Source: Bacteroidota bacterium (GTDB lineage Bacteria; Bacteroidota; Bacteroidia; B-17B0; Aurantibacillaceae). From it: a stretch of 64,000 bases of DNA. Location: positions 186,001-250,000 of the forward strand of contig JAUXZS010000015.1 in the NCBI GenBank assembly GCA_030692515.1. Reading direction: 5' to 3'. How positions within the stretch are numbered: the stretch's first letter is position 1; each line of letters starts with the position of its first letter. The notes under the pieces were generated by a model. The model saw nothing but the letters and a program-made list of their open reading frames with translations. It had not been told where the DNA came from and searched no databases. Made by a program: the position numbers and the translations under genes. Shown in pieces: positions 19,381 through 64,000 of this stretch.

Positions 19381-19532
19381 ATCATAATCAAGTTATATTG
19401 ATAGAACTCAATGTTTCTATCTATTGAAAAAAATCGAGTCGTCAAACAAATGAAATTCTAAGTTTTGCTGTTAAAAATTAAAACAGTTCCATTATTTTTA
19501 ATATTTTTGGTAAAACAAATAATTATAAAAAA

Positions 19533-20549
19533 ATGAAAAAAATTTACTCTACACTTTTCTTATCAATTGGTATTTTATGTGTTAATGCGCAAACATTAAC
19601 CGAGGCCAATCATTCTCCTGTTGCTGGCGATATGTATACGACCTATCAATGCGATTCATTAAATGTTAATCCCGGGGCTTCTGGAGCAGGAGCCGTTTGG
19701 AATTTTTCTACAGTAGTTACACATAGTAATGTAATTAATAATTACACGGCAGTTGCAAATTCTAATGCATCTTATCCGATTCCTGGTGTAGCGCTAGCTT
19801 CATCTGTTAATAATATTTCTTATTATAAATCTACTACAAGTGATTTAAAATATTGGGGTGGTAATATTGTTGTTGGACCAGTAGCAGCAACGTTGATTTA
19901 TACTACTGCTGCCGTTGTAGCGGCTTATCCAATGAGCATAACAACCTCAAGTTCTTCTGCAACAGGAGGAACAATTAACACAACTGCGCCATTGCCTCAA
20001 GCAGGGACTTTTGTTGGAAATAGTGGAACTATTGCAGATGGAACCGGAACTTTGATATTGCCAACCGGAACTTTTACGAATGTAATAAGAGTAGTAACAA
20101 CTCAAACTATAGATTTTATCGTTCCTTTAGCAACGGGGACTGTTACGCAAATGAATTTTGATTATTATAACATAGGCACCAAAGAATCTTTATTTACTAT
20201 TTCCACTTCAACGGTTTTAACTAGCTTATCACCAACACCTTCTACTCAAACAATTGTTACAAGAAGTGTGCCAACACCAGTTGGTATTAAAGAGAATAGA
20301 CAATCTCTTATTGATTTAGTTGTTTTTCCTAATCCTTCTTCCAACCAAGTGAATTTTGTGACGGAGAGCAAAGAGGCAAAGCAATTGGTAATTTATGATG
20401 TTACAGGTAAATTAATCGAGCAACATAATTTTGTTGACGGTAAATTAATATTAAGTGTTTTAGATTATAATAAAGGAATGTATTTGTATTCTATTCTTGG
20501 AAATAGCAATCAAACTCTAAAATCAGGAAAAATAACAGTTAGTCATTAA
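19533..20549 (+). CDS. Secreted protein with T9SS type A sorting domain (paralogue 1)
   Basis: The 338-residue protein has a Sec signal peptide ending near VNAQ (about 20), a Thr/Ser/Gly-rich beta body with a GDMYTTYQCDSLNVNPGASG opening, and a C-terminal type IX sorting domain (about 262-338): VVFPNPSSNQVNF, KQLVIYDVTGKLIEQ, GMYLYSILG and ending SGKITVSH. The type IX system would export it and attach it to the surface or release it. The function of the body is unknown. A close paralogue follows at 20917; the two share most residues through the whole length, so they are a tandem duplication. Confidence 0.88.
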   Translation: MKKIYSTLFLSIGILCVNAQTLTEANHSPVAGDMYTTYQCDSLNVNPGASGAGAVWNFSTVVTHSNVINNYTAVANSNASYPIPGVALASSVNNISYYKSTTSDLKYWGGNIVVGPVAATLIYTTAAVVAAYPMSITTSSSSATGGTINTTAPLPQAGTFVGNSGTIADGTGTLILPTGTFTNVIRVVTTQTIDFIVPLATGTVTQMNFDYYNIGTKESLFTISTSTVLTSLSPTPSTQTIVTRSVPTPVGIKENRQSLIDLVVFPNPSSNQVNFVTESKEAKQLVIYDVTGKLIEQHNFVDGKLILSVLDYNKGMYLYSILGNSNQTLKSGKITVSH

Positions 20550-20567
20550 ATAGATTGTTTTTTATTG

Positions 20568-20597
20568 AAAGCCATTCTGAAAGGAGTGGCTTTTTTT
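20568..20597 (+). terminator. Rho-independent terminator
   Basis: AAGCCA and TGGCTT arms with an inner TTCT/GGAG pairing are followed by seven T. It lies about 19 nt after the stop of the first T9SS paralogue. Confidence 0.75.
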
Positions 20598-20611
20598 GTT
20601 GTTAAAAAATA

Positions 20612-20757
20612 AACCACATAGAGACATAGTTAAGGCGTATGATTATACTTATAATTATAGTGTCGCATAGTTTTCTTCGTCCTGGACGAAGAAAACCCTA
20701 TGATTTTCTTTCTAAGACGATGCTTATTTCTAAGAGACTTATGTTTCTATGTGGTTA
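20612..20757. repeat. Imperfect palindromic repeat, CCACATAG family copy 1
   Basis: Outer arms AACCACATAGAGACATAG (from 20612) and CTTATGTTTCTATGTGGTT (to 20756) are near-perfect inverted copies. Inside is a second hairpin, 20670-20706, with TTTTCTTCGTC and GACGAAGAAAA arms flanked by CATAG and CTATG. A related element lies at 47796-47904. No coding content. This is a non-autonomous palindromic repeat of unknown mobility. Confidence 0.8.
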
Positions 20758-20916
20758 ATAAAAATCGTTGGCTTTACTGTTTTAGCGATCTTAGGCCGCA
20801 TTTAATTAAAAACCAATTTGTTTGTTAAAACAGCCTCATTTTAAAGCTTTTCAGGTAAAAACCTAAAAAGCACGTGTTTTTTTTATATTTTTGATGAAAT
20901 ACTTAATTAAAAAATT

Positions 20917-21927
20917 ATGAAAAAAATTTACTTAGCAATTTTTACAGCATTAGCGGGATTATCGTTAAACGCTCAAACATTAACAGATGCAAATCATTCG
21001 CCGGTTGCAGGAGATATGTATGCAACTTACCAATGCGATTCATTAACAGTTACTCCTGGAGCTTCCGGCGCTGGTGCATTATGGAATTTTGGCACAATTG
21101 TAACTCATAGTAGTATTGTAAATAATTATACTGCCTCTGCAAACTCTAACGCTTCTTATCCTATCCCGGGTGTGCAATTGGGTTCTGCAGCGAGTAATTT
21201 ATCTTATTACAAATCTTCAGCTACAGATTTAAAATATTGGGGCGGTAACATCACAATTGCTTCTATTGCATCGTCATTTGTTTATACAACTGCGGCTGTT
21301 ATAGCGGCCTATCCAATGTCGTTAAGCACAACTAGTACCGCTGTTACGGGCGGAAGCGTATCTATCCCTTCTTTATCTCAAACAGGAACGTTTACGGGAA
21401 ATAGCGGCACAATTGCTGATGGAACTGGAACTTTAGTAATACCAACCGGAACTTTTAACAATGTAGTTCGTGTGGTAACTACTCAAACAATTAATTTTAA
21501 TGTGCAGCTTGGCTCAGGTTCGGTTACTCAAAAAAATTGGGATTATTATAGTGTAGGCACTAAGGAAGCGTTGTTTACTATTACAACTGCAACTATTGTA
21601 GCGCCTTTAGCAGGTACTTCAACTCAAACTCTTGTTACTCGTGCAAAACCGATTATTACGGGTGTTAGTGAAAGTGTCAATAACACATTAAGTTTAGCTG
21701 TTTTTCCTAATCCTTCAAGCACAATAGTAAATTTTATTACTGAAAGTAACGAAGCAAAACAGGTATTGATTTATGATATTACAGGTAAATTAGTTGAAAA
21801 ACAAAATCTTGTAGATGGGAGATTAAAATTAGATGTTTCTTCTTACACTACAGGTTTATATATGTATACTGTAGTTGGAAATGCTAATCAAACTTTAAAG
21901 TCTGGTAAAATTACAGTGAGTCACTAA
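20917..21927 (+). CDS. Secreted protein with T9SS type A sorting domain (paralogue 2)
   Basis: The 336-residue protein has a signal peptide ending near LNAQ and a body collinear with the upstream paralogue (GDMYATYQCDSLTVTPGASG; YPIPGVQLGS; SYYKSSATDLKYWGGN). The C-terminal sorting domain contains LAVFPNPSSTIVNF, KQVLIYDITGKLVEK and an ending TLKSGKITVSH that is identical in its last 12 residues to paralogue 1. Candidate -7 box TATTTTTG at 20886-20893. No known ligand or enzyme motif; a structural or adhesive surface protein is the likeliest class. Confidence 0.88.
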   Translation: MKKIYLAIFTALAGLSLNAQTLTDANHSPVAGDMYATYQCDSLTVTPGASGAGALWNFGTIVTHSSIVNNYTASANSNASYPIPGVQLGSAASNLSYYKSSATDLKYWGGNITIASIASSFVYTTAAVIAAYPMSLSTTSTAVTGGSVSIPSLSQTGTFTGNSGTIADGTGTLVIPTGTFNNVVRVVTTQTINFNVQLGSGSVTQKNWDYYSVGTKEALFTITTATIVAPLAGTSTQTLVTRAKPIITGVSESVNNTLSLAVFPNPSSTIVNFITESNEAKQVLIYDITGKLVEKQNLVDGRLKLDVSSYTTGLYMYTVVGNANQTLKSGKITVSH

Positions 21928-21947
21928 TTATAGAAGACCCATTTTTT

Positions 21948-44232: not shown

Positions 44233-44354
44233 TTTAACTACTAATTGATACTATTAAAAATAAGCAAACTAATTAGAAATAAAAAGTAAGCATAAATATT
44301 GTCTAGCAAATAAAAGTTAAATTATGAGTTAGAATCTGCTTTTGCCGTAATGAT

Positions 44355-47300
44355 TTAAATCACAATATTCACAATCTTCTTTGGAACAATAATAATTTTC
44401 TTAGGTGTTTTACCTTCTAAATATTTTTGTACATCTTCTCTGCTCATTACTTCTTTTTCAATTTCTTGAACGGTTAATGTTGCAGCAAGTTCAATATTTA
44501 AACGCATTTTACCATTAAATGAAATAGGATAGATAAAACTATCATCCACTAAATACTCTTCGTTATGTAATGGGAAAGTAGCAAAAGCAATACTTTCTTT
44601 ATGTCCCAATAAGCTCCAAAGCTCTTCGGTAATGTGCGGCGCATATGGTGATAAACAAATTAACAAAGGCTCTAAAATTGCACGCTTGTTACATTTTAAA
44701 TCGCCTAATTCATTTACGCAAATCATAAAATTACTTACAGAAGTGTTAAACGAAAAGCGCTCAATATCTTCAGTAATTTTTTTGATCATTTTATGCAATG
44801 TTTTTAATTCTGCTTTTGAAGCCCCCTCCAAACCTCCCCCGGGGGTGGAGGCTTTCTCAGATTCAATAACTAGAATACCTAAGCGCCATAATTTTTTTAA
44901 GAAACCTGCAACACCGGTAATACCATTCGTATTCCATGGTTTACTTTGCTCTAAAGGACCTAAAAACATTTCGTATAAACGTAAAGTATCTGCGCCAAAT
45001 TTTTCACCAATGTCATCAGGGGAAACAACATTCCATTTTGACTTAGACATTTTTTCTACTATTGGTATAGCTTCAAGTTTATTATTGTCAAGCTGAAATT
45101 GGTCAAATTCTCCGGGGAATTCAAACGAGTTGTTGTTAAATAATTCATAGTTTCTCAAATGAGGATACTTGGCCTTAGATAAATTAAGAACTTCTTGGTC
45201 AATAAAATACTTCCCACCTTCAAATTTCACATAGTCCACGGGAAAGTTCAGTTTGCCTATTTTTATTACTGATGTTTTACTATTTGAGGGCATAATAATG
45301 GTCTTAGCCCCATCTTCAATACTAGACGGATTATGAGAATGTATAACACTTACTTCCATACTTGTTCCCTGTATCATCCCTTGGTTAATCAACTTCTTAG
45401 CTGGTTCGTCAATTGCAATGTGCCCAAGGTCTTTTAAAAATTTGGTCCAAAATCGCACGTACAATAAATGGCCGGTGGCATGTTCGCTGCCGCCAATATA
45501 TAAATCAACTTGTTTCCAATACTCTGTTAATTTTTTATCGGCAAATACAGAACCGTTATGAGGGTCCATATAACGCAAAAAATACCAAGAGCTTCCTGCC
45601 CAACCTGGCATGGTGCTGTGTTCGTAATCGTAAGCCCCTCCTAAATCCTCCCCTTGGGGGAGGACTTGTAGGTGCTGCCTAATTTCGGCAACAACATTAT
45701 CGATGTCTGAAAAAACTCTTTTGTTTTCAAAACGAATTACTTTATAGCCTTCTTTTTCAAGTTCTAAAGTTCTTGCATCATCATATTCCTTTTGGTAATT
45801 ATGAATTTCGCCATCAACTTCAATAATTAATTTTTTATCCAGACAAACAAAATCAACAATATTAAATCCTATTACTTGTTGCCTGCGAAATTTATAACCT
45901 AACTGATTATTTTTAATCTGTTGCCACAATGCAACTTCTGCGTTTGTTTGATTGTTTCTTAATTCTTTTGCACGCTCTTTCATTTCTTGCCAACCAGAAT
46001 TTGCTGCAGTTTGCCAACGAGGTTTTGTTCTATCCTCTCCCCCTTGGGGAGAGTTAGAGAGGGGCTCTGGTCTGTACTTCCAATCTTTTGCTCTCGCCAA
46101 AGGTGGTTCGCCATCTTCGGTTGGTAAATATTTATCTACTTCAGGTAAAACCAAAGGCAATTCATTATCGTTTAGTGCATACGGAATTCCGTTTTTATAA
46201 TAAATAGGAATTGGTTCTCCCCAATAACGTTGTCTGCCAAATACAGCATCACGTAAACGAAAATTTATTTTCTTTTTCCCTAAATTTTTATTTTCAATTT
46301 CTTCTATTGCTTTTTTAATGGCGGCTTTTACATCTAGTCCATTTAAAAAATCGGAGTTAATTAATGTACCTTCTTTTTCGCCCCAAGCATCTTTTGCAAA
46401 ATCGTGTTCTTTATTTGGTTCTATAACTTTAGGTAAAGGCAAACCAAAATAATTCGCAAATTTAAAATCACGCTCGTCATGCGCCGGCACTGCCATAACC
46501 GCGCCAGTTCCATATCCCGCTAATACATAATCGCCCACCCAAATAGGAATTTGTTTTCCGGTAAAAGGATGCAAAACATAAGAGCCGGTAAACACTCCAG
46601 ATATTTTTGTTACATCTGCTTGTCGCTCGCGCTCACTTCTGTTTTTTGAAACAGTTACATAATCATCTACAGCTTTTTTATTTTCTGCTGTTGTTAAAAC
46701 AGAAACTAATTCATGCTCAGGAGCAAGTGTCACAAACGCAACACCAAATATTGTATCGGGTCTTGTAGTAAAAACTTCTATTTCTTTAGTCGCAAGTTGT
46801 ATGTCGTTAGTCTTTAGTCCTGCGTCCTGTATCTTAAAACGTAACGATGTTCCTTCACTTCTTCCAATCCAATAACGTTGCGATTCTTTTAAACTTTCTG
46901 TCCAATCTAAAGTGTCTAAGCCATCTAATAATCGTTGTGCATAAGCGGAAATACGCATACTCCATTGTTTCATGAGTTTGCGTTCAACGGGATGTCCGCC
47001 GCGTTCGCTTACACCATCTTTTACTTCATCGTTTGCTAAAACGGTTCCTAAAGCTGGACACCAATTCACATATGCTTCGCCTAAATAAGTTAAGCGATAA
47101 GCCATTAAAATATCTGATTGTTCTTTTTCTGAAAATGATTTCCAATTTTCGGCAGTAAATGATTTTACGTTTTCATCGCAAACCGCATTTATTTTTGTAT
47201 TTCCATTAATTTCAAATTCTTTTATTAATGAAGAAATATTTTCTGCTTTATCACTTGTTTTATTGTACCACGAATTAAAAATCTGTATAAAAATCCATTG

Positions 47301-47705
47301 AGTCCATTTATAATATTCAGGGTCTGATGTTCTAACTTCCCTATCCCAATCAAAACTAAAACCAATTTTATCCATTTGCTGACGATAGCGCGCAATGTTT
47401 TCTTCGGTAGTAATTTTTGGATGTTGCCCAGTTTGTATGGCATATTGTTCTGCAGGTAAACCAAAACTATCGTAACCCATTGGATGCAAAACATTAAAGC
47501 CTTTATGACGTTTATAGCGTGCAATAATATCAGAGGCAATATATCCTAATGGATGTCCAACATGTAAGCCCGCACCAGAAGGATAGGGAAACATATCCAA
47601 TACATAATATTTTGGTTTAATAGAAGAATCTTCCGCTTTAAAAGTTTTATTCGTTGCCCAAAAATGTTGCCATTTTTTTTCTATATCGGTAAAATTATAT
47701 TCCAT
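44355..47705 (-). CDS. leuS: Leucyl-tRNA synthetase with three in-frame repeat-derived insertions
   Basis: The 1,116-residue synthetase charges tRNA-Leu. HIGH-type motif in [16 protein letters not shown], editing domain with [15 protein letters not shown] and [38 protein letters not shown], and KMSKS at about 885-889. Usual length in the phylum is roughly 920-950. The excess comes from three segments: about 289-302 (word repeat), about 547-691 (DUF559 element, see 45634-46067) and about 951-963 (palindrome). All preserve the frame and lie between conserved blocks, at surface-loop positions, so the enzyme is probably active. The gene is essential and I see no second leuS in the window. No intein splice residues are present. 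Confidence 0.95.
44818..44856. repeat. Intragenic GC-rich palindrome in leuS
   Basis: GAAGCCCCCTCCAAACCTCC and then CCCGGGGGTGGAGGCTTTC form an imperfect palindrome centred on CCCCCGGGGG. On the minus strand it encodes [13 protein letters not shown], a low-complexity insert of 13 residues between conserved helices of LeuRS. Its ends (AGCCCCCTCC, GGAGGCTT) resemble those of the nuclease element 0.8 kb away. Confidence 0.8.
45634..46067 (-). mobile_element. Palindrome-flanked DUF559 endonuclease element inserted in leuS
   Basis: The element spans about 434 bp and both ends carry palindromes: 46034-46067 with CCTCTCCCCCTTGGGGAGAG, and 45634-45666 with CCTCCCCTTGGGGGAGG, each extended by an AGAGGGGCT/AGCCCCTCC outer end. 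Between them is a DUF559 domain (restriction-endonuclease-like fold), LeuRS residues about 575-685: [61 protein letters not shown]. Likely catalytic acids D618, E629 and D631 are intact. The Met at 575 could start a separate nuclease. It is read in frame with leuS, without splicing signals. Confidence 0.85.
46798..46842. repeat. Copy of an intergenic word repeat inside leuS
   Basis: Minus strand: ATACAGGACGCAGGACTAA, then AGACTAACGACATACAACTT, encoding [14 protein letters not shown] (about residues 289-302). Homologues go directly from the beta strand (SLRFKI) to [10 protein letters not shown]. The words GACTAAAGA and ACTAACGAC recur in the ftsA-ftsZ spacer at 41799-41868. Confidence 0.65.
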
Positions 47706-47795
47706 TTTAAGAACTTTATTTTTTTAATAAATAGATAACAAAGATAAGATTTTAAGGGGCTTTGGCAAATGGCAATTTAATGGAGTAAAACGAAA

Positions 47796-47904
47796 TTAAA
47801 CCACATAGAAACATAGAAAAGTTCTTTGCTTGATTTTCTTCCTCCTCCGTGCTTTGCAACACCTCCTCAATGAGGAGAATAGGCTATGTATCTATGTGTT
47901 TAAC
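47796..47904. repeat. Imperfect palindromic repeat, CCACATAG family copy 2
   Basis: Left arm TTAAACCACATAGAAACATAG and right arm GGCTATGTATCTATGTGTTTA are inverted copies; the centre differs from the copy at 20612 but also contains a hairpin-like CCTCCTC/GAGGAG pair. It fills most of the 211-bp gap between leuS and the omega-amidase gene. Confidence 0.78.
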
Positions 47905-55691: not shown

Positions 55692-58600
55692 ATGTATTTG
55701 GGAAAGAAAAGATTTATACTTTTTATTTTAGGTTGTTTTGCTTTTCTTGCGTTTAACGCACAATCTTTTTATTGGGTTGGTGGTAGCGGAAATTTTAATG
55801 ATGGGAACCATTGGAGTTTAACTTCAGGAGGAGTATCTGTAAATAAAATCCCAAATTCTAACACCGATGTTATTTTTGACGATAATGCAACGTCTAATTA
55901 TAGTAATCCTGTTGTTAATTTTGTAGGCGTAAATCATTGTAAGTCTTTAAAATTTACAAATGATTTTATAAATTATACTATTACTGGAACAAAGTATACG
56001 GAAATAAATATTTCAGGAGATTTTGAATTAAACGCAAAAACAAATTTTAAAACAAACTCTAAATTAATATTTAATTCTGGTTCTAGTCAATACAAAACTG
56101 TTCGTTTTAATTCCACTTCTTATGAAGGTGATGTTGTTTTTGAGAATGGAAATTGGAATATTAAATACATAAATATTGATAATTCGAATTCGTTGACTAT
56201 TAATTCTGGGAATTACAAAATAGCATCTTCTACAATAAAAACTGGAAATTTTTACGCGAATAAAGGTCAGGTAAACTTTGATATTACTAGTGGAAAGTTA
56301 GATGTAAAAAACATTATTGATATTGGTACAAACTCAAAATTTGCATCCAATAAGTTTTTAATAAAAGCAGATCAAAATAACAATATTAATTATAAAATTA
56401 ACCCTCAAGTTAATTTAGGTAATGATTTTAAAATTCTAAATTCGAGCAATTCTCAAGTAATGGCCTGTGGCGCAACGCTTACCGCTGTTGGTATTTCTTG
56501 TTCGGGTGTGTGCGACGGAAAATTAATATTAGATATTGATGCTTCCTGCGCGGCTGGGCCATATAATTTACAGTGGAATAATCCATCATGCGTTACTCCG
56601 ACACTTTTAGTTGTTCCTGGCCCAGGTAGTTATACAATTACAAATTTATGTTCTTGTGTCGATTTTTTTGATGTAATTGTTTTTACTGGAGCAATACCAA
56701 TAGCATTTTCTAATGCTGCCCAAATTGTGGGTGTATCAGCAATAAATTTTGTTCCGTTTACTTTTGTTCAGCCAAAATGCTTTGGAGATTGCAACGGTTC
56801 AATTACTGGTAATATTAATGGAAGCGTTGGGCCATATACTGTAACGGTAAACGGTACTTCAACATTCGCTGTTCCATCAGGCGTTTCCACTTTCACAAAC
56901 TTATGCGCTGGCGTTAATACTTTTGCAATTGTAGATACTAAAGGCTGTACTAGAACTTTTACGCCTTCGCTTTCACAACCTGCTGCACTTAGCACAACTT
57001 CAATTACGTCAAGTGTAACATGTAACGCTGCTTGTAACGGTTCAATATCTTTATCTCCAATAAATGGGACAGCGGGTTATACTGTAGTTTTTAGTCCGGG
57101 TGGTACTTTTACCGTTCCTGCGGCAGGCTCTGCCACGTTAGGTAATTTATGTCCAAGCGTTGTATCGTATACTATTACTGATTCTCAAGGGTGTTTTATT
57201 AATTCAAATTTCAACATTACGCAACCACCAGCGTTAACAGTTACTCCAACTCAAACTGCAATTACATGTGGAGGATTATGCACAGGAGCAGCCTCGGTTA
57301 ATGTTACAGGCGGAACAACTCCATATAGTTATACTTGGTCACCAGGACCAGGAAATTCTGCTGGAATTGTTAATTTATGTTCTGGGAATCATACTGTTTC
57401 AATTCTAGACAATAATAATTGCCCCATTTCACAAACTTTTACTTTAAATGCTCCTCCTCCAATAACAATAACACCAACATTTACAAATGCGTCTTGCAAT
57501 GGTTTATGTAATGGGTCTGCTTCTGTTAGTGCTTCTGGTGGAACAGGAGCGATAACCTTTACGTGGATAGCTACTGGGCCCTCTACGATTGCAGCAAACT
57601 CTTCATCCGTTAATAATTTATGTGCTGGAGTTTATACCGTGTTTGCTTTAGATGCAGCAGGTTGTTCCACCACAGCTATTGTAACCATCAATCAGCCCCC
57701 AGCACTTAGCATAACCGCAACTTCTCAAAGCATCACTTGTTTCGGATTATGTAATGGAGGAGCTACTGTTTCTCCTTCTGGTGGTAATGGTGCTCCATTC
57801 AATTTTACCTGGACGCCTGTTCCTCCAACAGGGCAGGGAACAGCGACTATTTCCAATATTTGTAATGCTGGAGTATATACTGTTTCGGTAACTGATGGTT
57901 CCCTTTGCCCTATTTCTACAACTATTAGTATAACTCAACCCTCTAGTGTTACGCCAAACATTGTAACCACGAGTGTTAGCTGTAATGGAGGTAATAATGG
58001 CTCAATAAATGCAAATCCTACCCCTCTAGCTTCAGGACCGTTTAGTTATACTTTAGCTTCTACAACGGCTACAATATTTACTGCTCCACCATACCCAAAC
58101 TTAACTGCAGGAATTTATACTTTAAGTATTGGATACGGCGCAGGTTGTATACAAACGTTTACGGTTAACATTCTTCAACCAAATCCATTAATTCCATCAA
58201 TAAGTTCCACTTCCATAACTTGTTTTAATCAATGCGACGGTACTCTTGCTGGAAGTGCAATTGGAGGTACGCCAGCCTACACTTTTATTTGGGCAACACC
58301 AACCGGAACAGTTGCTGGTGGAGCTCTTGCTGGGCAATGTGTTGGTAATTATACCTTTAATGTAACTGATGCAAATGGTTGTACAGCTTCTTCAACAATC
58401 ACTCTTGCCCAGCCCCCAGATATAATTGTTGGCGTTAATTCAGCTACTGTTTCTTGTTTCTCTAGTTGTAACGGTGCGCTTTCGGCCACGGTTTCTGGAG
58501 GAACTCCTGGATATACTTTAACTTGGTCAAATGGCCCAACAGGTAATCCAAATGTGGGTTTGTGCGCGGGATCTTATACAGTAGTAGTAGTTGATACAAA

Positions 58601-61600
58601 AGGATGTACTAAAACTGCAACCGCAACAGTATCTGCACCACTTGCTATCACTCTGACTCAAAATACAACTTCAACTTCATGCGCGGGTGGATGCGATGGT
58701 TCAGCTACAATTACTGCGCTAGGCGGAACGCCTCCATTTACTTTTCAATTTAATACTGTTCCTGCAACAGTAAATGCTACAGGTATTATTAGTGGTTTGT
58801 GTGCAGGAAATTATATTGCAAATGTTACTGATGCAAATGGTTGCGCACAGTCAATAAATTTTTCAATTAGCTCACCTATTGCTTTATCGGCTGCAATTAC
58901 TGGCATACAATCAAGTTGTAATGCTTGTACAGGTGCGTCAACTGTTACCGCATCGAATGGTACACCTGGTTACACATTTGTTTGGACAAATTCACTTGCT
59001 GTTTCTGTTGGAACAAATAATATTGCGACTTCCTTGTGTCCAGGAAGTTATACCGCAACAGTAACTGACAGCAAGGGTTGTACGGCAACCGCAACAGCTA
59101 ACATTGTTCAAACAGTAAGTGTTACAGTTGTGACTGCGGGTGCTGGAATTCAATGTTTTGGAGCTTTTACTGGTTCGGCTACAGCTAATGCTTTAGGGGG
59201 AACTTTGCCTTATACCTATACTTGGACTCCAACTGCGCCAACTCAAACTACCCAAACGGCAACGGGTTTGGGGGCCGGTAATTATACTGTTTTGGTAATG
59301 GATCAATTAGGGTGTTCAAATACGGGAACTATTTCTTTTGCAAACCCTCCTGCCATTACAATTGCGCCTACACAAACAAATATTAATTGTTTTGGTAATT
59401 GTAACGGTGCAATAAATTCAAATGCATCGGGTGGTACAGGAGCGCTCACTTATTCATGGAGTCCGGGAGCTCTTAACACGCCAAACATTAATAATTTATG
59501 TACCGGCAATTATACATTGATAGTTACGGATGCTAATTCTTGTTCAAATACTCAAACATTCAACATAGCTACCTCTCCCTCAATTAGCGCTACTTTTACT
59601 ACAACAAACCCTTCTGCTTGTATTGTTAATAACGGAAGTATTTGCGTAACTCCTAGCGGAGGTACAGGAGCAGGATACACGTTTACTTGGAGTCCGCCAG
59701 GAGGAATAGGAGGAAATACGAGTTGTTATTCAGGTTTATCTGCCGGACCATATTCGTTAATTTTAGCAGATGGAGCTGGTTGTACTAATACTTTATCATC
59801 TATAATAACTAATCCCGCAGGACCAATTCTAAACGTTACTACCCAGTCGGTTACTTGTTTTGGTTCTAACACAGGCGCCGCTACAGTAACCGCAGTTGGT
59901 GGAGGACCCTTTACGTTTACCTGGACCCCTGTAGTTGGATTTGTAACAATAGGAAACACCACTACGGCAAGTGGTTTAATTACCGGCACTTATAATATTT
60001 CTGTAACAAATATTCCTACAGGATGTATTACAACTCAATCAATTGTAATTGCCCAACCTGCAGCTTCGCTCACCATTAACTCTACAGTTACAGCCGCTAA
60101 ATGTTTTGCTTCTTGTAATGGTTCAATAACTATTGTTGCCGCCGGCGGCACACCTGGATACAATTATAGTTGGTTACCTATAGCACCTCCTATTACAGGT
60201 CAAAATACGCCAACCGTTACTAACTTATGTCAGGGTAATTATACTTTAAATATTACGGATGCTAATTTATGTCCTAGACAATTTACATTTGTAATTACAC
60301 AACCTACAGCGTTAACACTAACTACTACTGCAAGTAACGTATTGTGTAATGCCGCATGTAACGGAACCATTAACGTTGCTGGAAGTGGAGGAACCGCTCC
60401 AATTACTTTTACTTGGTTACCTGTGGGAACTTTTACTGGCTCTACAAATCCAAATATTTTTAATTTATGTCCTGCTGCTTATTCTGTAAACGCGAGCGAC
60501 TTAAATGGATGTCCTATTTCTACCGTTGTTAATATAACTCAACCTACTGCATTAACTAGTACTCTTGTCTTTGTAAATGCAAGTTGCTCTAATTCATGTA
60601 ATGCAACTGCCTCAATAAGTGTTGGTGGTGGAACTCCTACCTATAGTTTTAGTTGGTCAAATGGACCGGCAACTACCTCGAGTATTGGAGGTTTGTGTGC
60701 AGGGAACTATACTGGAACAGTTGTGGATGGGAATGGATGTATTTCAGCAAATGGATTTACTGTTGTTCCTCCAGCTGCTTTTAATGTGACTCTTACACCA
60801 ACTAACCCTTTATGTAATGCCGCATGTAACGGAAGTATTGCAACACTCTTTGCAGGCAATCAAGGAACAGTAAGTTTTAATTGGGTGGCTACAGGTACCG
60901 GTCAAAACCCAACTAATTTATGCGCGAACAATTATACTTTAACCGCAACTGATGCTAATGGTTGTGTTGCGTCAGGAGTTACAAGTCTAGTTAATCCTCC
61001 GGCAGTTTTAGCTAATGTAACAACAACCAATCCAGCCTGTAATGGCAACTGTAATGGAATTGCCATTAGTACACCAGCCAATACTACCGGCACAGTAAGT
61101 TATAGTTGGCTTCCTGCAATACCTCCAATAATAGGACAAGGAACTCAAACTGTTTCAAGTTTATGTTCTGGAAATTATTCGGTTACTATTCAAGATGCCA
61201 ATGGTTGTCAAGCTAATCAAACATTTACTTTGAACAACCCTCCAGTATTAAGTGTTAATGCATCGGTTGGACCAGCTACTTGCGGATCTCCAAATGGATC
61301 TATTACAGCTATTCCGGTTGGCGGAACACCTGCTTACACATTCTCGTGGACTGCCCCAGTATCTAGTACAAATGCAGCAGTTGTTGGATTACCTGCAGGT
61401 GTTTATACAGTTATAGTAACAGATGCCAATAGTTGTACAAATACTTTAACAATACCATTAAGTAATTCAAATGGACCAAGTTCTGCGCCTATTACATCTT
61501 CTAGTATTTCTTGTAATGCTCAATGTACAGGTGCCGCTTCAATAAATATTGGTGGAATTATTGGAGGTACTCCCGGATATACGGTTACATGGGTAGTTCC

Positions 61601-64000
61601 GCCATCTAGTTCATCGGTTAACCCACAAACAAATTTATGTGCTGGTACATATTCAGCTCAAATAAACGACGCAAATGGTTGCTTGTTATTTAACTCTGTT
61701 GTTATTTCCGAACCACCAGCGATTTCAATTTTACAAAATCTAACTTTCCCAACTTGTAATGGTGTTTGTAATGGTTCAATCACTTTAACTACTTCTGGTG
61801 GAACTGGACCTTATTCTTATACTTGGAATCCAGGCGCTTCTGCAAACGCAACTTTAACAAATGCGTGCGCAGGAAATTACACTGTCAATATTTCTGATGT
61901 TAATCTTTGTCCTTCTACTTTAACTCTTAATTTACCTGCTGCACAAAACATGACGGCAACTGCTTTGACTACAAGTAATACTTGTTTTGGAAACTGTTTA
62001 GGAACCGCAAGCATTACTTCAATTGTGGGGAGCCCTAATTTGCCTATCACTTATTTATGGAGTAATTCTCAATCTGGACCTTCTGCAACAAATTTATGTA
62101 ATGGTGTTTATACTTACACAGCAACAGACGCATTAGGATGTTTTAATAGCTTTACAACAAACATAGTTTCTCCAACCCAAATCACCTCAACTAACTCGAT
62201 CGCCTCTCCTTCTTGTAATATGTGTAATGGCTCGTCAACAATTACTGCCGCTGGCGGAGTAGGACCATTTACTTATAGTTGGACATCTAGTGCAGTTGGT
62301 TCTGTTGCTTCAAATTTATGCGCTGGATTATACCAAGTTTTAATAACAGATAATAATCTTTGTACTCAATTACAAAATGTGTTAATTAGTAGTTCAAGCG
62401 GAATTACTGGAGAAACGGCAACGATACAAAACGAAATTTGTGCAGGACAGTGTAATGGTGCTGCAACTGTTGTAGCAATAGGAGGAACAAATCCAATATC
62501 ATATAGTTGGGTAAACCCCGCCGTATCTAATTCGGTTATAACAAATTTATGCGCTGGCAATTATTTTTTGCAGATGACCGATGCGCAAGGTTGTATTCGA
62601 ACCACTTCGGTAAATATTGCCGCGGCATCTAACTTAACACTAACTCCAACAATTATTGCTCCTGCATGTACTTTAGCAAATGGAACAATAAGCATTGTTC
62701 CGAGTGGCGGAAATCCTTTGCCGTTTTATAATTTTTCTTGGGCACCTGTTGTTGGAATTACTTCTTCATTAACTAATATTTCAGCCGGAAATTATACTGT
62801 TACTGTTACTGATGGATCTGGTTGTCAAAAAACTCAAGTGTTTGCAATTAGTAATTCAAGTGGTCCTGTCATTACTTTTACTCAAAATAACATTCCTTGT
62901 TTTAACGATTGCACCGGTGCAATAACAGCTTTAGGAACTAGTACCTCCGCACCAATAACCTATAATTGGAGTAACGGAAACAATACGCCAACCGTTAGCG
63001 GTTTATGTAAAGGTTTAATTACATTAACGGTTACTACGCCTGCAAATGGATGTGTTAGCGTTCAATCATTTAGTGTAACTGATAATCCTGCGTTACAATT
63101 AAGTCTTACAAATATTACCCAACCTAAATGTCATAATGATTGTGATGGCGCAATAACTTTAGTGCCCAGTGGTGGAACTTTACCTTACACTTTCACATGG
63201 TCGCCTTCTGGTTCAAGTAACCCTCAATTCTCTTTATGCCCAGGGCCATCAACTGCAGCAATTGTTTACTCTGCGACTATTACTGATGCTAATGGATGTA
63301 CGGTTTCTACTAGCACCACATTAATAAATCCTGCGTCTATTGTATTAACTCCTACGGTGGTTAACTCTTCTTGTAGTTCCGTTCCAGATGGTTCATTAAG
63401 TCTTGGTGTAAATGGTGGAACTCCAATTTATACTTTTACTTGGACAGGCCCATCAGCATTTACTGCTAACACTCAAAATGTAGGGGCTTTATTTGCCGGA
63501 ACTTATTCTGTAAGCATTACTGATTTTAATGGGTGTTTAAAAGATACCGTTTTAGATGTGGTGCCAACAATTAGTATTGTGGCGCAGGCTGGAAATGATG
63601 TAACGGTTTGTCCTACACCTTCAGTAATATTAACAGGAACTAATTCTTTTGGTGGAGTTTCATTTGATTGGTTTTTACTTCCAAACAATACAAATACAGT
63701 TGCCAATACGCCAACTTTTTTAGCGCAAACTCCAAACCTCGCGCCAGGATCATTTACGTATGTATTAGTCACTACATCTTCTGTTTCAGGATGTGCAGAT
63801 TTTGATACAGTTGTTGTAAATACATTTGCCTTACCTTTTGTAGAAGCCGGACCATCATTCACAATTCCGGTATTTACAAATGTTACCATTGGTGGTAACC
63901 CAACAGCTATGGGTTCTTTCTCGTTAAACTGGTCACCTTCCTTCTTTTTAGATGACCCTAGTATTCAAAACCCTTCAGCTTCAAATACTTTACAAACAAC
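55692..64000 (+). CDS. Giant SprB-like repeat adhesin (C-terminus off window)
   Basis: The frame is open from the ATG at 55692 to the right edge, over 2,769 codons without a stop. A signal peptide (1-24) is followed by YWVGGSGNFNDGNHWS and a beta-rich region (about 25-255) of the kind seen at the start of large gliding/adhesin proteins. Then come about 30 repeats of about 79 residues, from 56470 to 63570, with the form SC-x4-CNGS...GGTxPYTYTWS...NLCAGNYTVTVTDANGC, i.e. SprB repeats. The final 430 nt change to a PKD-like region with VEAGPSFTIPVFTNVTIGGNP. SprB-type proteins are moved on the surface by the gliding machinery after T9SS export; a type B sorting domain is expected downstream but not visible. 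Confidence 0.93.
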   Translation, partial: MYLGKKRFILFILGCFAFLAFNAQSFYWVGGSGNFNDGNHWSLTSGGVSVNKIPNSNTDVIFDDNATSNYSNPVVNFVGVNHCKSLKFTNDFINYTITGTKYTEINISGDFELNAKTNFKTNSKLIFNSGSSQYKTVRFNSTSYEGDVVFENGNWNIKYINIDNSNSLTINSGNYKIASSTIKTGNFYANKGQVNFDITSGKLDVKNIIDIGTNSKFASNKFLIKADQNNNINYKINPQVNLGNDFKILNSSNSQVMACGATLTAVGISCSGVCDGKLILDIDASCAAGPYNLQWNNPSCVTPTLLVVPGPGSYTITNLCSCVDFFDVIVFTGAIPIAFSNAAQIVGVSAINFVPFTFVQPKCFGDCNGSITGNINGSVGPYTVTVNGTSTFAVPSGVSTFTNLCAGVNTFAIVDTKGCTRTFTPSLSQPAALSTTSITSSVTCNAACNGSISLSPINGTAGYTVVFSPGGTFTVPAAGSATLGNLCPSVVSYTITDSQGCFINSNFNITQPPALTVTPTQTAITCGGLCTGAASVNVTGGTTPYSYTWSPGPGNSAGIVNLCSGNHTVSILDNNNCPISQTFTLNAPPPITITPTFTNASCNGLCNGSASVSASGGTGAITFTWIATGPSTIAANSSSVNNLCAGVYTVFALDAAGCSTTAIVTINQPPALSITATSQSITCFGLCNGGATVSPSGGNGAPFNFTWTPVPPTGQGTATISNICNAGVYTVSVTDGSLCPISTTISITQPSSVTPNIVTTSVSCNGGNNGSINANPTPLASGPFSYTLASTTATIFTAPPYPNLTAGIYTLSIGYGAGCIQTFTVNILQPNPLIPSISSTSITCFNQCDGTLAGSAIGGTPAYTFIWATPTGTVAGGALAGQCVGNYTFNVTDANGCTASSTITLAQPPDIIVGVNSATVSCFSSCNGALSATVSGGTPGYTLTWSNGPTGNPNVGLCAGSYTVVVVDTKGCTKTATATVSAPLAITLTQNTTSTSCAGGCDGSATITALGGTPPFTFQFNTVPATVNATGIISGLCAGNYIANVTDANGCAQSINFSISSPIALSAAITGIQSSCNACTGASTVTASNGTPGYTFVWTNSLAVSVGTNNIATSLCPGSYTATVTDSKGCTATATANIVQTVSVTVVTAGAGIQCFGAFTGSATANALGGTLPYTYTWTPTAPTQTTQTATGLGAGNYTVLVMDQLGCSNTGTISFANPPAITIAPTQTNINCFGNCNGAINSNASGGTGALTYSWSPGALNTPNINNLCTGNYTLIVTDANSCSNTQTFNIATSPSISATFTTTNPSACIVNNGSICVTPSGGTGAGYTFTWSPPGGIGGNTSCYSGLSAGPYSLILADGAGCTNTLSSIITNPAGPILNVTTQSVTCFGSNTGAATVTAVGGGPFTFTWTPVVGFVTIGNTTTASGLITGTYNISVTNIPTGCITTQSIVIAQPAASLTINSTVTAAKCFASCNGSITIVAAGGTPGYNYSWLPIAPPITGQNTPTVTNLCQGNYTLNITDANLCPRQFTFVITQPTALTLTTTASNVLCNAACNGTINVAGSGGTAPITFTWLPVGTFTGSTNPNIFNLCPAAYSVNASDLNGCPISTVVNITQPTALTSTLVFVNASCSNSCNATASISVGGGTPTYSFSWSNGPATTSSIGGLCAGNYTGTVVDGNGCISANGFTVVPPAAFNVTLTPTNPLCNAACNGSIATLFAGNQGTVSFNWVATGTGQNPTNLCANNYTLTATDANGCVASGVTSLVNPPAVLANVTTTNPACNGNCNGIAISTPANTTGTVSYSWLPAIPPIIGQGTQTVSSLCSGNYSVTIQDANGCQANQTFTLNNPPVLSVNASVGPATCGSPNGSITAIPVGGTPAYTFSWTAPVSSTNAAVVGLPAGVYTVIVTDANSCTNTLTIPLSNSNGPSSAPITSSSISCNAQCTGAASINIGGIIGGTPGYTVTWVVPPSSSSVNPQTNLCAGTYSAQINDANGCLLFNSVVISEPPAISILQNLTFPTCNGVCNGSITLTTSGGTGPYSYTWNPGASANATLTNACAGNYTVNISDVNLCPSTLTLNLPAAQNMTATALTTSNTCFGNCLGTASITSIVGSPNLPITYLWSNSQSGPSATNLCNGVYTYTATDALGCFNSFTTNIVSPTQITSTNSIASPSCNMCNGSSTITAAGGVGPFTYSWTSSAVGSVASNLCAGLYQVLITDNNLCTQLQNVLISSSSGITGETATIQNEICAGQCNGAATVVAIGGTNPISYSWVNPAVSNSVITNLCAGNYFLQMTDAQGCIRTTSVNIAAASNLTLTPTIIAPACTLANGTISIVPSGGNPLPFYNFSWAPVVGITSSLTNISAGNYTVTVTDGSGCQKTQVFAISNSSGPVITFTQNNIPCFNDCTGAITALGTSTSAPITYNWSNGNNTPTVSGLCKGLITLTVTTPANGCVSVQSFSVTDNPALQLSLTNITQPKCHNDCDGAITLVPSGGTLPYTFTWSPSGSSNPQFSLCPGPSTAAIVYSATITDANGCTVSTSTTLINPASIVLTPTVVNSSCSSVPDGSLSLGVNGGTPIYTFTWTGPSAFTANTQNVGALFAGTYSVSITDFNGCLKDTVLDVVPTISIVAQAGNDVTVCPTPSVILTGTNSFGGVSFDWFLLPNNTNTVANTPTFLAQTPNLAPGSFTYVLVTTSSVSGCADFDTVVVNTFALPFVEAGPSFTIPVFTNVTIGGNPTAMGSFSLNWSPSFFLDDPSIQNPSASNTLQT

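Follow-up and report, generated by a model that had tools for sequence, protein, structure and literature searches.

The leuS gene of the window, that is, of the whole 64-kb stretch of DNA analysed, raises the question of how a nuclease domain bracketed by palindromes came to lie within leucyl-tRNA synthetase (LeuRS), and whether it is part of the enzyme or a genetic element lodged in it. In the ORF list of the window, the gene was one unbroken frame of 1116 codons on the minus strand. Its product scored 923.9 bits against TIGR00396 (leuS_bact) in the NCBIfam profile search, kept both LeuRS signature motifs (HVGH at residue 48 and KMSKS at residue 885) and was the only leuS match of the window's genome at E 1e-50 or better. 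The reading frame continues through the segment 45634-46067, an insert of about 430 bp. The features concerned were the following:

44355..47705, minus strand: leuS, leucyl-tRNA synthetase, the host gene, 1116 aa (ORF and TIGR00396)
45634..46067, minus strand: palindrome-nuclease element, in frame, at what is called here LeuRS site B (sequence and empty sites in relatives)
45669..45986, minus strand: DUF559 nuclease core, LeuRS residues 574-679 (PF04480; fold match to 3hrl and 3r3p; six invariant residues)
46035..46053, minus strand: hairpin within the upstream end unit, coding-sense sequence CTCTCCCC-aag-GGGGAGAG (pattern, alignment of ends, folding)
46054..46067, minus strand: tail lying outside the upstream hairpin, read as GCCCCTCTCTAA in coding sense and mirroring the arm of that hairpin (end comparison)
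45646..45664, minus strand: hairpin of the downstream end unit (pattern, end comparison, folding)
45633..45645, minus strand: tail lying outside the downstream hairpin, read as TTTAGGAGGGGCT in coding sense, its orientation opposite to that of the upstream tail (sequence; right-side mirror test over elements)
44820..44855, minus strand: third palindrome in leuS, without nuclease, with similar peptides there in two relatives, G011 and G020 (pattern; weak folding); probably a decayed solo unit

Read in coding sense, the order of the element is tail, hairpin, nuclease, hairpin, inverted tail. A search for an empty site in relatives, proposed by the initial annotation of this DNA, found most of the 64 family LeuRS read to be empty at site B, the commonest empty form being of type KDWKYKGEFDYEHTTMPGW, 144 aa shorter than the LeuRS of the window. 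The best structure match, 1h3n, which we take to be Thermus LeuRS, aligned to the protein without the site-B segment; an AlphaFold2 model of the entire LeuRS, built from 4 sequences, had a mean pLDDT of 31. The initial annotation had held that the same domain in all relatives without palindromes, or a second leuS, would speak against a mobile element. Neither condition applied: the nuclease was found in 5 of 64, the rest being mostly empty, palindromes flank it, and a single leuS was detected.

The enclosed domain matched PF04480 (DUF559) over residues 574-679 with E values of 4.8e-35 in the whole protein and 1.7e-36 alone, its score of 124.8 bits lying above the curated cut-off of 20.6. Together with the single 1116-codon ORF, this match corroborated the in-frame fusion of a DUF559 domain that had been proposed for leuS. 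D618, E629 and D631 are retained as stated at the outset, and E590, H635 and D642 can be added as putative active-site residues kept in the insert. At core positions 17, 45, 56, 58, 62 and 69, the corresponding E, D, E, D, H and D did not vary in any of the 104 in-frame or the 52 stand-alone rows, cores shorter than 85 aa having been excluded beforehand and the in-frame label, here as in the 161-domain tree below, including two C-terminal fusions and some proteins with an unnamed host family. The AlphaFold2 model of the insert had a mean pLDDT of 62.7 and was fair in the core only; with the core model, Foldseek retrieved 3hrl (E 2.5e-7) and I-Bth0305I (3r3p, E 3.3e-5), the latter also being a weak sequence match to the domain (E 0.0018), and Vsr itself weakly (E 0.14). 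Judged from the pairwise dN/dS of inserts, which was 0.04-0.36 where dS was not saturated (several pairs were saturated), the nuclease domain is under purifying selection. The insert domain is best described as a Vsr-fold (DUF559) nuclease with an intact putative active site, presumably active.

An in-frame ATG of its own within the 32 codons before the core was present in 39 of 100 in-frame inserts, on which count a conserved own start codon was rejected; the figure was 67 of 100 when GTG and TTG were included. Since many inserts lack such a start, independent expression is not general. No PADLOC match indicating a defence system was found at E 0.01 or better. Carriage by phages was considered and discarded, the viral contigs holding one relative (37% identity) and the best PHROGs match (E 3e-8) being of unknown function; relatives occurred in 32 plasmid records, all below 60% identity.

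The initial annotation had stated that intein splice residues are missing, and no intein or Hint splicing domain was found among the Pfam and NCBIfam matches of LeuRS. Group I or II intron RNA was likewise not detected, there being no Rfam match at E up to 1 across 44300-47800, and in the LeuRS rows listed the frame was open over both insert ends, without a stop. As the searches gave no splicing apparatus, joint translation of nuclease and host protein, with the nuclease kept as an extra domain, is most likely; mature LeuRS would then carry it between Pro/Ser/Gly-rich linkers encoded by the palindromes.

Pattern matches and hairpin folding agreed with the GC-rich palindromes first noticed at both ends of the insert. 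The pattern CTCCCC(N0-8)GGGG had 6 matches in the window versus 0.04 expected, the strand-wise matches falling at three places, all within leuS; a general repeat search of the window did not list these short leuS hairpins. Elsewhere in the window, a long stretch of imperfect repeats with a spacing of about 225-240 bp or multiples (56700-63800), perhaps an adhesin gene, and a segment in two diverged copies spaced about 1380 bp apart (19460-21930) were observed. Single-strand DNA folding compared with shuffles gave z scores of -2.7 at one element end and -5.5 at the other, the palindrome at 44820-44855 being no better than shuffles (z -0.2). Over the elements of many genomes, for which 102 of 110 long-ORF inserts were used, the best hairpin in the 130-nt flanks had a median score of 22 on the left and 21.5 on the right, versus 13 for 398 control windows taken from those host ORFs, and a score of at least 24 on at least one side was reached by 46 of 102 inserts versus 4 of 398 single control windows.

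The commonest form of the ends was a tail CCTCACCCC-NA followed by CCCCTCTCC-nnn-GGAGAGGGG, the opposite end carrying the inverse. Variants exist, including the GCCCCTCTCTAA-CTCTCCCC-aag-GGGGAGAG of the window, and a minority of flanks were without such a hairpin. Hairpin units with an asymmetric tail, set in inverted pairs, correspond to a REP-type anatomy. The tail was a mirror of the hairpin arm and co-varied with it by element: among ends having a perfect stem of score at least 17 (81 left and 79 right), the mean match was 0.88 on the left (n=81), versus 0.73 with the arms of other elements (maximum 0.761 in 200), 0.757 with the unmirrored arm and 0.736 with shuffled letters, and 0.871 on the right (n=79), versus 0.715 swapped and 0.727 unmirrored. 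Left and right arms within one element were also similar (0.884 versus 0.779 swapped, n=63), 8 of the 63 standing at 0.75 or less. As a mirror repeat cannot form an ordinary hairpin, a triplex-type fold is a possible reason for the tail, and the mirror repeat might allow an intramolecular triplex. A target site duplication, the mark of a DDE-type transposon or MITE, was not found in 24 elements, those with tails fitting the pattern: the mean longest flank repeat was 1.17 versus 1.38 when shuffled, and none of the 24 had 5 or more.

The distribution of the domain was analysed at several taxonomic levels. Within the family, 55 of 87 genomes held 94 DUF559 matches, 29 of them in ORFs of at least 810 aa and 65 in ORFs no longer than 222 aa, so that 29/94 represents the unselected in-frame figure; the order-level genome set was made up of the same 87 genomes. 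By their flanks, the 29 long-ORF matches belonged to LeuRS site A (15), LeuRS site B (5), MetH (6) and urocanate hydratase (3), and one genome of the family, G076, had the nuclease at both LeuRS sites. No stop was present inside these 29 copies, which were recognised through their open frame. With GIY-YIG as control nuclease in the same 87 genomes, only two among the matches listed were in ORFs above 300 aa (391 and 352). Matches were present in 129 of 395 sampled genomes of the class at E 1e-27, and in 101 of 296 genomes of the phylum at 1e-28, long-frame matches outside the class included. Two genomes of one contig each (G217 and G391) have the domain in LeuRS, and G391 in RecG too, and chimeric assembly of metagenome bins is therefore not the general cause. 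Five more one-contig genomes (G499, G547, G551, G566 and G657) contain matches within ORFs longer than 1100 aa. On these sequence comparisons the phenomenon is phylum-wide, and leuS of the window is one case of it.

The class-level loci were chosen for long ORFs or high scores, and their proportions are not frequencies. Of 123 distinct domains, 110 were in frames of at least 220 aa, which formed about 25 clusters, an approximate count as cluster 6 merges IcmF and an unrelated protein. Hosts named by HMM were MetH, AcsA, RecG, IleRS, RecJ, IcmF, HutU, MutS and HisF, together with a pseudouridine synthase, a family III CoA-transferase, UvrD, TsaD, a PurL-type amidotransferase domain, an M23 peptidase, HsdR and an N-formylglutamate amidohydrolase; a SiaA-like phosphatase matched its HMM below the cut-off. 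The domain was N-terminal in HisF and the pseudouridine synthase, and C-terminal in the amidotransferase and amidohydrolase proteins. Counting named frames only, the M23 peptidase apart, internal inserts were found in at least 14 host families, LeuRS included. Insertion points sit between conserved segments, in RecG for instance after DEQHRFGVAQR and before TATPIPRT. Palindromic inserts thus lie in frame in unrelated conserved genes, as in RPE-like elements.

The search for palindrome-flanked DUF559 genes that the initial annotation had suggested gave in-frame copies in many other enzymes, and also hairpins around stand-alone copies. Among 41 stand-alone domains at 40 loci, which were chosen for high rank in the lists so that proportions are not frequencies, 33 had a hairpin score of at least 19 on the left side and 28 had one on the right; flanks were wider than for inserts and the figures are not directly comparable. 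A tandem pair of DUF559 genes was seen at one locus (L239), with similar hairpins between and around them, resembling a repeat-driven duplication. In a record of Candidatus Saganbacteria (L074), the palindrome-like peptide VPPLPEGEGDL precedes a DUF559 frame, and the association may thus extend beyond this phylum. A further tree, of 161 domains, gave 8 changes for the in-frame label versus 46.9 when shuffled; one of its groups, with 107 rows, comprised 97 in-frame and 9 stand-alone rows plus 1 N-terminal row. In-frame copies being recognised by a long open frame, antisense or gene-breaking copies would count as stand-alone in this comparison; as far as this tree tells, in-frame copies are mostly from one lineage, with exceptions on both sides.

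Occupancy of the two LeuRS sites was read in 64 of the 87 family genomes (83 had a LeuRS match, and at least G018, G024 and G057 were cut by contig ends). Flank patterns read site A in 61 of 64 and site B in 61 of 64, the other three at each site being of 915-948 aa and hence without nuclease. Site A was filled in 15 of 64, needing 14 changes on the LeuRS tree, and site B in 5 of 64, needing 5, neither figure improving on shuffled labels. G026, the sister to the window's genome, lacked the nuclease and had a short possible scar, KYMPSEGGAF, at site B. Intermediate states were also seen: G070 resembled an internal deletion form of the insert of G076, site A of G020 held a unit pair without nuclease, and site B of G050 and G057 held single units. 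Of 37 hairpins scoring at least 22 in the 64 leuS genes, 34 fell within site A or site B, and many of these were element ends. Other repeat-like peptides (RHPELVSGSQEMLKQVQHD, FDSAQGDK) were noted at site A in L129 (G071), L089 (G022) and L128 (G070), and short tandem repeats in other genomes; the site A loop may serve repeats in general as a landing place.

In a first domain tree (121 of 123 domains), which left out cores under 85 aa and so favours intact copies, elements of different hosts interleaved: LeuRS-A (35 rows) needed 10 changes, LeuRS-B (14 rows) 6 and Acs (7 rows) 4, many forks being weakly supported. With moderate support, an Acs element fell within a LeuRS-B group and LeuRS-B elements next to MetH ones. 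The AU test rejected a single clade for LeuRS-A (p 0.018), and not for LeuRS-B (p 0.19) or Acs (p 0.355). For 34 of the 35 site-A elements, insert and LeuRS alignments rejected each other's tree (p-AU 8.9e-5 and 6.8e-5) and the two trees shared 9 of 31 splits. Only 1 of 14 well-supported insert splits conflicted with a well-supported LeuRS split, and insert and LeuRS distances correlated (Mantel r 0.43, with 0 of 999 permutations as high), so that the conflict may partly be noise from some 106 columns and there is some vertical signal.

Between the window's genome (G000) and G011, the closest pair, the proportion of synonymous differences was 0.50 in the insert core versus 0.585 in the rest of leuS, not clearly lower. 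For the whole insert, dS was 0.63 versus 1.10 for leuS in this pair and 0.72 versus 1.18 in G060/G062, the nuclease core alone giving 0.47 versus 0.58 in the latter. A lower insert dS is not claimed, as for G000/G011 it weakened when only the core was used. Sliding synonymous differences in G000/G011 and the other pairs tried gave no co-conversion or low-divergence tract round the insert, and recent homing in the lineage of the window was rejected on this ground.

The window's own genome held one DUF559 copy by profile search and seven sites of the palindrome pattern: the two leuS ends, one site each in MetH and IleRS, another close to the end of a 431-aa frame, and two outside frames of at least 100 aa. 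The solo palindromes of MetH (L005, about 1484-1530, G000:C41) and IleRS (L002, 1501-1515, G000:C18) were both in frame, the former at the loop that holds DUF559 in other genomes. A bacterial genome being mostly coding, palindromes in frames are no enrichment by themselves, and it is the shared MetH loop that matters. The same genome had four Y1_Tnp matches, and by exact pattern no element unit was found within about 1.5 kb of any of these loci, one of which ends at a contig edge and has an unrelated hairpin. A RAYT as mover in this genome was rejected, as none of these palindromes was seen at its Y1_Tnp loci.

Several known systems share parts of this anatomy. REPINs and their RAYTs consist of paired hairpin units with a tail round a nuclease gene, and the inverted pairs of hairpin units with a conserved asymmetric tail round a nuclease gene found here are alike in this respect; here, however, the nuclease is a Vsr-fold DUF559 rather than a Y1 transposase and is often embedded in host enzymes. 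Inteins with homing endonucleases also bring a nuclease in frame into conserved genes, at recurrent sites and with a patchy distribution, but no splicing domain was found here and the protein seems to retain the insert. I-Bth0305I, alike in fold and weakly in sequence, is a mobile intron protein according to PDB, whereas here no intron was found and nuclease and host protein share one frame. Stand-alone DUF559/Vsr-like nucleases, such as VsrA of Caulobacter and 3hrl of Neisseria, are of the same domain family but are free proteins, the present domain lying within another enzyme and being bracketed by palindromes. In the accessible text of its report, VsrA is a DUF559 protein predicted to be a Vsr-like mismatch-repair endonuclease and is linked to a solitary cytosine methyltransferase (PMC12907096). 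Rickettsia palindromic elements comprise 44 in-frame insertions (PMC10969869, citing Ogata et al. 2000), and REPs have been described within repair genes, tRNA synthetases and pseudouridine synthases (PMC3733652). Both resemble the present elements as palindromic DNA in frame in conserved genes, occurring as singles and inverted pairs; they differ in that their coding inserts are of 20-82 aa or about 150 bp, with no nuclease gene mentioned in the accessible text of these sources, while here a nuclease frame between the units forms an internal domain (PMC10969869, PMC3733652). In-frame palindromes and DUF559 as a Vsr-like nuclease are thus already known; no prior report of nuclease-bearing in-frame elements was found in the accessible text of the open-licence literature on DUF559.

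The segment is probably a mobile or formerly mobile selfish palindrome-nuclease element persisting as an unspliced internal domain. This reading draws on the anatomy, the open frame, the conservation, the patchy occupancy, the multiple hosts and, at the same loops, the forms that hold palindromes only or resemble deletions; it sustains the initial idea of a selfish element in a tolerant loop of an essential gene, mobility being argued by comparison from patchy occupancy and many hosts. The element would consist of two inverted REP-like hairpin units with a Vsr-fold (DUF559) nuclease frame between them, lodging in frame in tolerant loops of conserved enzymes. The nuclease may nick or cut palindromes in hairpin or cruciform form, upon which repair, templated by a filled copy, would carry the element into an unfilled one, for the most part at the same site, in a homing-like manner relying on homology of the host gene or of the palindromes. 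Now and then copying might reach another palindrome-bearing loop, and deletion between the palindromes would turn a site back into a scar. As only precise in-frame losses survive, an essential host would, in this proposal, shield the element.

The chief rival explanation holds that the palindromic units are mobile through another enzyme, such as a RAYT/Y1 transposase, or through recombination, DUF559 being their cargo. It can call on the units and pairs without nuclease in the same loops, on the four Y1_Tnp matches of the window's genome and on the nuclease-free in-frame palindromes already in print. Its difficulties are that none of the four Y1_Tnp loci has units within about 1.5 kb by exact pattern, that the putative active site is invariant in a domain under purifying selection, and that stand-alone DUF559 genes are often hairpin-bracketed themselves. 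We regard it as rather unlikely; the conserved nuclease and the lack of a linked Y1 in the window's genome speak against it and little else decides. Repeated loss of an old vertical domain, already present in ancestral LeuRS, MetH, Acs and others, appears improbable: site filling is scattered like shuffled labels, a single site-A clade is rejected (p 0.018), insert and LeuRS trees conflict, elements of different hosts interleave in one tree with moderate support, and 1h3n aligns without the site-B segment. Such a history would nevertheless fit the scars and deletion-like form at site B in G026, G012 and G070, an insert-core synonymous divergence not clearly below that of leuS and the correlated insert and host distances (r 0.43).

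Removal of the insert at RNA or protein level, by an unrecognised intron, bypass or a novel intein, would leave mature LeuRS without it and account for its tolerance in an essential enzyme. With no intein or Hint domain in Pfam or NCBIfam matches, no Rfam match at E up to 1, and a frame open over both ends without a stop in the LeuRS rows listed (other hosts were partly selected by long frames), it seems still less probable. A domesticated nuclease giving LeuRS and other enzymes a second job, for instance in defence or repair, would be consistent with the invariant putative active site and with the predicted repair role of the DUF559 protein VsrA of Caulobacter (PMC12907096). This host function, envisaged as moonlighting in the initial annotation, gained no support from a patchy distribution over many unrelated hosts, sporadic among close relatives, nor from PADLOC (no match at E 0.01 or better), and we consider it very improbable.

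Known selfish nuclease genes in essential genes survive by splicing out, as introns or inteins. Staying in the protein would be another survival route for such genes, besides splicing. Tentatively, and as a serious possibility rather than a probability, palindrome-nuclease elements could form a distinct homing-like selfish class without RNA or protein splicing: a permanent Vsr-fold nuclease domain found across Bacteroidota, with hairpin and mirror-tail (triplex-capable) ends and landing sites, hopping among LeuRS, IleRS, MetH, AcsA, MutS, RecG, RecJ, TsaD and others. The finding raises the questions of how a housekeeping enzyme tolerates a nuclease domain and of what moves palindromic repeats without a linked RAYT. 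If true, many important Bacteroidota enzymes would hold an internal nuclease domain with an intact putative active site, the unusually long synthetases, methionine synthases and repair proteins of these bacteria would be element-bearing forms, and protein loops would be a habitat for mobile DNA.
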